A stretch of DNA of 50,416 bases from Campylobacterales bacterium (GTDB lineage: Bacteria; Campylobacterota; Campylobacteria; Campylobacterales; Sulfurimonadaceae), in contig JAPLGP010000030.1 of NCBI GenBank assembly GCA_026390075.1, forward strand, positions 1 through 50,416, written 5' to 3'. A model generated the notes under the pieces. It was not told the DNA's origin, ran no database searches, and saw nothing but the letters and a program-made list of their open reading frames with translations. The position numbers and the translations under genes are program-made. Shown piece after piece: positions 47,115-47,774 of the stretch (within the stretch, counting starts at the first letter, position 1; each line of letters starts with the position of its first letter).

Positions 47115-47774
47115 TTAATTCCCACAACTCGAATGAGAACCTTTTGTGGAGCAACCATCAAAGTTGAGTGTCACTTCAAAATATTCATCTTTAGCTTCTT
47201 TTTCAAATCCGTATCCACGATACAAAGCGATTTTTTCCAAGTTTAGAGCTTCTTGTTCCGTGGCAACAATTATCTTAAGAGTTTTATCCGCATAATTGTT
47301 TAGAGTTGCTTTGAGTTGGTGCATTGCATCTGGAATAGGAAGATTGCGACGGCTATCCATCGGCATTCCTCTTGTATCGAGTACACTATCTTTTATATTG
47401 AGTGGTACTTGATACTCTCCCATGAGCCGTTTTGAAGACGCTTTCCAACCAGCTTTATCGAGGTCGGCACTTCCAAAAAGTGCGCAGTGGCAAGTGCCAT
47501 ATTCTTTGATTTCATCTTCGATAAACTCACATGGGCAAAGCATTTTTTTGTTCAGTTCTGCATCGCTTGATGGCTCAAAACATGGGCAGTAGCGTTTACC
47601 AAAAGTCGCTTCAAGTTCACTCAGCCATATCTCCAAATTTGTTGACATCATCCAACTTGGATTGAGTGCATAATTTTTCTGCTTAGCAAATTTTCTAATC
47701 CAAATATCTTGTTTTTTTACCTGAGCTCGATATTTCCAAAAATCTTTAAAAAAACCTATCATCATTTTGAGCAT
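47115..47774 (-). CDS. Ferredoxin-thioredoxin-reductase-type iron-sulfur protein with TusA-like tail
   Basis: A 219-residue protein. Residues about 60-100 hold RYCPCF, MLCPCEF and TCHCALF, the CPC/CPC/CHC cysteine pattern of the catalytic chain of ferredoxin-thioredoxin reductase, which binds a 4Fe-4S cluster beside a redox disulfide. From about 132 the sequence LDTRGMPMD...LPIPDAMHQLKATL, then KIIVATEQEALNLEKIALYRGYGFEKEA, resembles a TusA/YedF fold, but the catalytic Cys of TusA is absent. A GGAAAG site precedes the ATG. The role is probably reductive thiol or sulfur chemistry; the substrate is unknown. Confidence 0.8.
   Translation of the reverse strand: MLKMMIGFFKDFWKYRAQVKKQDIWIRKFAKQKNYALNPSWMMSTNLEIWLSELEATFGKRYCPCFEPSSDAELNKKMLCPCEFIEDEIKEYGTCHCALFGSADLDKAGWKASSKRLMGEYQVPLNIKDSVLDTRGMPMDSRRNLPIPDAMHQLKATLNNYADKTLKIIVATEQEALNLEKIALYRGYGFEKEAKDEYFEVTLNFDGCSTKGSHSSCGN

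Follow-up and report, generated by a model that had tools for sequence, protein, structure and literature searches.

The window (the whole stretch of 50,416 nucleotides that was analyzed) bears on its minus strand a gene for a 219-residue protein (47115..47774; ATG at 47774, TAA at 47115), for which 14 homologous loci and dN/dS estimates are available, and whose product is predicted to combine a ferredoxin–thioredoxin reductase (FTR)-type catalytic domain with a TusA/SirA-fold domain devoid of the sulfur-carrier Cys. The N-terminal helices (residues 1–24; 47703..47774), delineated from the predicted model and invariant alignment columns, are followed by the FTR-type domain (residues 25–109; 47448..47702), supported by Pfam, PDB alignments and fold matches. 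A linker helix (107–121 in the model) and turn (residues 110–130; 47385..47447), with 7 of its 21 positions invariant, then leads into the TusA/SirA-fold domain (residues 131–205; 47160..47384), which was defined by the model, fold matches and profile tests, and the protein closes with a tail (residues 206–219; 47118..47159) ending in SSCGN, identified from alignment columns. At the extreme N-terminus, residues 4–8 (47747–47765) form an invariant MMI-F stretch (M4, M5, I6 and F8) in a predicted amphipathic-looking helix, possibly for contact with the membrane or with another domain. The gene stands alone, with a Sel1-repeat gene 205 bases past its stop codon and a divergently oriented HD-domain gene upstream. 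When ORFs were compared around the 14 loci and the window, and then across 20 homologue stretches and the window (L006 and L088 being one contig, and L087 entering without a call for the gene itself), no neighbor was found to be conserved, common neighbors being confined to close relatives; the most frequent neighbor family, a 326-residue protein, occurs in 4 of the 21 stretches. Likewise, no operon partner or client gene was found in these neighborhoods.

The FTR-type domain is recovered by the Pfam FeThRed_B model (PF02943) with an E-value of 7.3e-16 and a score of 58.6 bits, well over the cut-off of 22, and displays the pattern CPC-x14-CPC-x12-CHC (Cys63/65, Cys80/82 and Cys95/97). All six Cys are invariant in our alignment of 21 sequences, comprising the window protein and 20 loci, one of which (L010) ends at its contig end; the interrupted homologue L007 and the repeat copies L015, L017, L037, L039, L040, L041 and L046 were left out. 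They also align with the Cys of the ferredoxin:disulfide reductase (FDR) of Methanosarcina acetivorans (4tpu), the glutaredoxin/FDR fusion of Desulfotalea psychrophila (7pwe) and the FTR catalytic chain 7bzk, bearing out the original prediction, which had recognized the FTR catalytic-chain pattern in the CPC/CPC/CHC motifs. In phmmer searches against the PDB, 7pwe (E 1.3e-9) and 4tpu (1.9e-8) come ahead of the chloroplast FTR (0.019). The predicted model behaves similarly: it superposes best on 7pwe (Z 12.3, rmsd 2.9, 108 aligned) and 4tpu (Z 11.5, rmsd 2.6, 102 aligned), followed by the plant and cyanobacterial FTR catalytic chains 1dj7, 2pu9 and 7bzk (Z 8.4 to 9.2; 9.0 for 1dj7). The latter share the six-Cys catalytic fold but have a shorter spacing and lack a C-terminal TusA-fold domain, whereas 4tpu and 7pwe resemble the window protein in having a longer stretch ahead of the last C-x-C and in being multidomain, with a rubredoxin and a glutaredoxin, respectively, where our protein has the TusA fold. 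Judged by the model, the FTR-type domain is thus nearest in structure to the FDRs. The Methanosarcina FDR is reported to reduce an atypical thioredoxin (PMC6262447).

The model for the FtrB double selenoproteins (NF041072) scores the window protein at 44.9 bits, under its 160-bit cut-off, and the positions concerned are Cys here. In the plant-type FTRs, whose variable subunit is a separate protein, the redox disulfide links the second Cys of the first CPC to its counterpart in the last C-x-C; the corresponding pair in our protein would presumably be Cys65 and Cys97. By analogy with the family, this half would bind a [4Fe-4S] cluster, accept electrons from a ferredoxin and perform disulfide chemistry. 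The reductase half of the function proposed below is well supported.

For the C-terminal half of the window protein there is no Pfam match, the TusA model PF01206 being absent at E-values up to 10 with either the protein or the domain as the query. When the C-terminal domains alone of 13 family members are considered, PF01206 is matched weakly by 8 (best E 8.7e-4) and the YedF model TIGR03527 by 12 (best E 0.0014); in the window protein the YedF match begins at residue 143 and attains 16.2 bits, below the equivalog cut-off of 110 bits. With a profile made from 20 TusA-type domains of Campylobacterota found by PF01206 (YedF-type, TusA-type and others), the scores of the 13 members all lie between 4.2 and 15.7 bits, against 4.1 bits for the best of 1,300 shuffled copies and 0.5 for the best reversed copy, with the window domain itself at a modest 5.7 bits. 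The DUF2249 model (PF10006) matches none of the 13 at E-values up to 10. The hhalign comparison is asymmetric, giving 74% with the A2 profile as the query and 7% in reverse, which counts against relying on hhalign alone. Nevertheless, the TusA likeness of this half exceeds chance, and the resemblance to TusA/YedF noted in the original prediction holds as weak but non-random profile matches at the family level, together with the fold seen in the model.

An AlphaFold2 model of the whole protein, computed from a 14-row alignment, has a mean pLDDT of 86.8 and a pTM of 0.82, with the C-terminal domain mostly above 90. Residues 131–204 adopt in it a beta-alpha-beta-alpha-beta-beta arrangement with the topology of TusA, SirA and YedF. 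The best fold match is the SirA-like protein 3hz7 (Z 9.3, rmsd 1.9, with 70 of 74 residues aligned), E. coli TusA (3lvj) reaches Z 7.9 with an rmsd of 2.4, and the Alba, Smr and NUDT folds trail at 6.4 or less. With the domain modeled alone, the pLDDT falls to 64; 3hz7 still leads with Z 8.9, and E. coli TusA (7.3) is level with Smr (7.2). Across both comparisons, the folds of the same topology, namely Alba, Smr, the NUDT6/7 N-terminal domain and IF3-C, score between 5 and 7.2. Hence, comparison of the predicted structure with TusA, on which the original prediction had staked its assignment, upholds that assignment, and a TusA/SirA fold for residues 131–205 is well supported by the modeling. 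This fold also comes close, at Z 5.5 to 7.2, to Alba and Smr, which bind nucleic acids; that closeness, along with a lone gene without partner enzymes, would suit a non-enzymatic Fe–S redox sensor, in which the state of the FTR cluster controls whether the TusA-fold domain binds a protein or an RNA. We consider such a sensor distinctly improbable, because the TusA/SirA matches at 9.3 and 7.9 lead over at most 6.4 for Alba or Smr in the whole-protein model, and Cys65 and Cys97, which are redox-active in FTR and unneeded for cluster binding, are nonetheless invariant in all 21 sequences.

The sulfur-carrier Cys itself is missing throughout the alignment (21/21), and no Cys occurs anywhere in residues 131–158 of any of these sequences. 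In the hhalign register, which is the better one, Ile147-Pro148-Asp149 lies opposite the Cys-Pro-x of the TusA CPxP motif, such that the Cys position is occupied by Ile in 18 and Val in 3 of the 21, and is followed by an invariant Pro148 corresponding to the first Pro of the old motif. We read the change as Cys to Ile/Val because the four residues that fall on conserved TusA positions in this register, namely Pro148, Lys155, Leu158 and Asn178, are all invariant in the family. Beyond the first Pro, the domain keeps the LD-RG signature of TusA, the Lys of its TK-AL segment and the Asn of helix 2. It differs from TusA in the lost Cys, in having Ala or Met for the second Pro, in its fusion to an FTR domain and in an enlarged loop between beta-1 and alpha-1 (residues 137–146; with Ile147, 47334..47366), placed by the hhalign register and the alignment columns. 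The Gly of RG is separated from the Cys position by 10 residues, about 8 more than the 2 found in TusA, and the enlarged loop holds the invariant Asp140, Arg143 and Leu145. Thus, while the loss of the Cys was correctly predicted, its proposed replacement by Met-Asp was not: that placement arises from counting forward from the Gly of RG, and Met139-Asp140 sits within the enlarged loop ahead of Ile147-Pro148.

Both halves of the protein are under purifying selection: six of the closest pairs have a usable dS below 1, and in these dN/dS ranges from 0 to 0.09 for residues 1–109 and from 0.07 to 0.13 for residues 110–205, two further pairs being saturated. Within the TusA-like domain, conservation is highest in the former active-site loop and helix (residues 131–158), where 12 of 28 positions are invariant as against 6 of 47 in residues 159–205 (Fisher p 0.005, unweighted for relatedness). 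The absence of the catalytic Cys and the two in-frame stop codons of the L007 homologue might suggest that the domain is a decaying, functionless remnant; given the low dN/dS of residues 110–205 in the six pairs and the 12 invariant positions of the former active site, this hardly seems credible. Rather, the combination of purifying selection and a conserved former active-site segment indicates that the domain is retained for a purpose and is no relic, and that it is most likely not a sulfur carrier either. The interrupted homologue (L007:6001-6657), in which both stops are TAA and positions otherwise invariant are changed, appears from its sequence to be a pseudogene or an assembly error in one MAG.

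One could also imagine that the lost TusA Cys is replaced by the C-terminal tail, whose Cys would act as a swinging arm that exchanges sulfur or electrons with the FTR site. Indeed, 10 of 20 sequences (L010 not counted), belonging to two branches, terminate in S-C-G-(N/S/T/Q) and so possess Cys217. The tail is, however, predicted to be disordered (pLDDT below 50), and since the other 10 full-length homologues have neither an SSCG-type tail nor a Cys there, it cannot be a need of the family; we therefore view a swinging arm as very improbable.

The fact that the TusA-like domain is modeled better within the whole protein (mostly above 90) than alone (64) suggests that the two predicted halves pack together. 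This better joint model and the conserved former active-site face fit both the docking of a client and packing on the reductase. Accordingly, one alternative holds that the domain is an intramolecular structural or donor-docking element, which either covers the FTR face in place of the plant-type variable subunit or binds ferredoxin, with the client binding elsewhere. Consistent with it are the confident prediction of the domain in the whole protein only, the enlarged loop with invariant Asp140 and Arg143 that is missing from TusA, the lack of a partner gene and the conserved former active-site segment, which would also fit a contact with the FTR domain. Against this, the stand-alone and rhodanese-fused FTRs of the phylum (see below) manage without a TusA-fold domain, and to our knowledge the variable subunit in FTR structures is not of the TusA fold. 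We rate such an intramolecular or donor-docking role as somewhat unlikely.

The fusion of the FTR-type and TusA-like domains is rare. A pattern scan of genome contigs, which finds close relatives only and is the sole sampling of phyla beyond Campylobacterota and the class of the MAG discussed below, turned up a relative at 14 loci among 37 candidate stretches. Thirteen of these are in records that include Campylobacterales, Helicobacteraceae, Sulfurimonas and Sulfurovum. The full-length protein is present in 3 of 60 genomes of the same genus and 1 of 39 others, and the C-terminal domain in 9 of the 397 Campylobacterota genomes sampled, in all 9 of which it is fused to FTR. The only copy outside Campylobacterota (L014:1587-2210), 57% identical to the window protein, comes from a MAG of Marinilabiliaceae (Bacteroidota), in whose class the fusion is found in 1 of 295 genomes, i.e., the starting one, the class being otherwise without FTR. 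Because the other ORFs of this contig, judged by eye, resemble a DNA polymerase III alpha-type protein, a polymerase of the DinB type and a repressor of the LexA type, acquisition by lateral transfer appears likelier than a mis-binned Campylobacterota contig. Among viral contigs we found no relative, and among plasmids a single matching record, which covers the FTR part only.

FTR as such is more widespread, being detected in 164 of the 397 Campylobacterota genomes. Among 49 FTR-motif ORFs from 46 top-ranked loci out of these 164 genomes, 43 are fused to a rhodanese domain and 6 (111–122 residues) to nothing recognizable, and none matches the TusA or A2 profile at an E-value of 1e-3. FTR–rhodanese is thus the usual form of FTR in the phylum. 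The genome bearing our protein has such a fusion too (L016:1468-2205; G000:C42), which is about 30% identical to the window protein over the FTR part only. It similarly places an FTR and then a sulfur-transfer-type domain on one chain; it differs in that the rhodanese retains its loop Cys (CHVGSR). By the reading of the ORFs, this gene has an argininosuccinate-synthase-like gene on one side and an rplI/hslV-like pair on the other. A third FTR match in this genome (G000:C5) was dismissed as noise, since it runs opposite to a Mur-ligase-like ORF and is riddled with stops.

We also looked for TusA-type proteins around the fusion. Neither PF01206 nor PF10006 has a match in the fusion's own genome, so that the obvious partners from a TusA network are not visible in it, and TusA is above the cut-off in only 3 of 60 genomes of the genus. 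An FTR–TusA fusion keeping the Cys was found at none of the 32 TusA-profile places examined in the genomes of relatives (20 loci and 12 further stretches, some of the 42 places listed having been left out). Hence, the partners and Cys-keeping versions for which the original prediction had advised a search did not turn up in the neighborhoods, TusA places or FTR-motif ORFs examined and, with no neighbor, partner or Cys-bearing fusion at hand, the substrate is taken from the family alone, which leaves the redox step on persulfides that the prediction envisaged hypothetical.

Bringing these threads together, we tentatively propose, at a little short of even chances, that the protein is an FTR/FDR-type enzyme that uses ferredoxin to reduce disulfides or persulfides, with a non-carrying TusA-fold domain serving as a docking or adaptor module. 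A low-potential ferredoxin would deliver single electrons to a [4Fe-4S] cluster held by Cys63, Cys80, Cys82 and Cys95, beside which the Cys65–Cys97 pair would attack a disulfide or persulfide of a client protein. Packed against the reductase domain, the TusA-like domain might bind this client through the surface around its former active site, for which the invariant Asp140, Arg143, Pro148, Asp149, His152, Gln153 and Lys155 are candidates; both the docking role and the client are purely what we infer. Docking is weighted somewhat above intramolecular packing because fusions of FTR to sulfur-transfer domains are a regular feature of this phylum. A narrower version, in which the client brought to the FTR site by the TusA-fold domain is a persulfidated sulfur-trafficking protein, making the fusion a ferredoxin:persulfide reductase in a lineage mostly without TusA, is in our estimation unlikely.

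FTR-type domains reach far beyond photosynthesis and their clients are mostly unknown; a docking role, if true, would mark as their client class the proteins that bind TusA or bear persulfides, and would, in chemolithotrophic Campylobacterota, connect sulfur trafficking with the redox state of ferredoxin. The parts of the protein are known, and their combination is conserved but uncommon, with a sulfur-carrier fold kept under selection after the loss of its defining residue. Loss of the Cys in the TusA fold has a precedent: six loci from the genus and order (L078-L083) have TusA-like proteins or frames of 79–92 residues with Ala-Pro or His-Pro for Cys-Pro, and the two of these six that were scanned match TusA about as well as DUF2249, both below the cut-off. 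Like DUF2249 (PF10006), the Cys-less Sulfurimonas proteins L078-L081 are TusA-type with Ala-Pro for Cys-Pro; they differ from the window domain, which has no DUF2249 match, in being single small proteins. For the fusion to FTR, our literature search gave no such precedent: among open-licence papers, we found none on an FTR–TusA fusion, and no full-text match for FTR in Sulfurimonas or for DUF2249 linked to TusA. Finally, four stand-alone FTR matches in the phylum (G310:C2, G411:C46, G291:C18 and G448:C78) display one internal TGA, which could be either an ordinary stop codon at the end of the match or a selenocysteine codon, as in the FtrB double selenoproteins.
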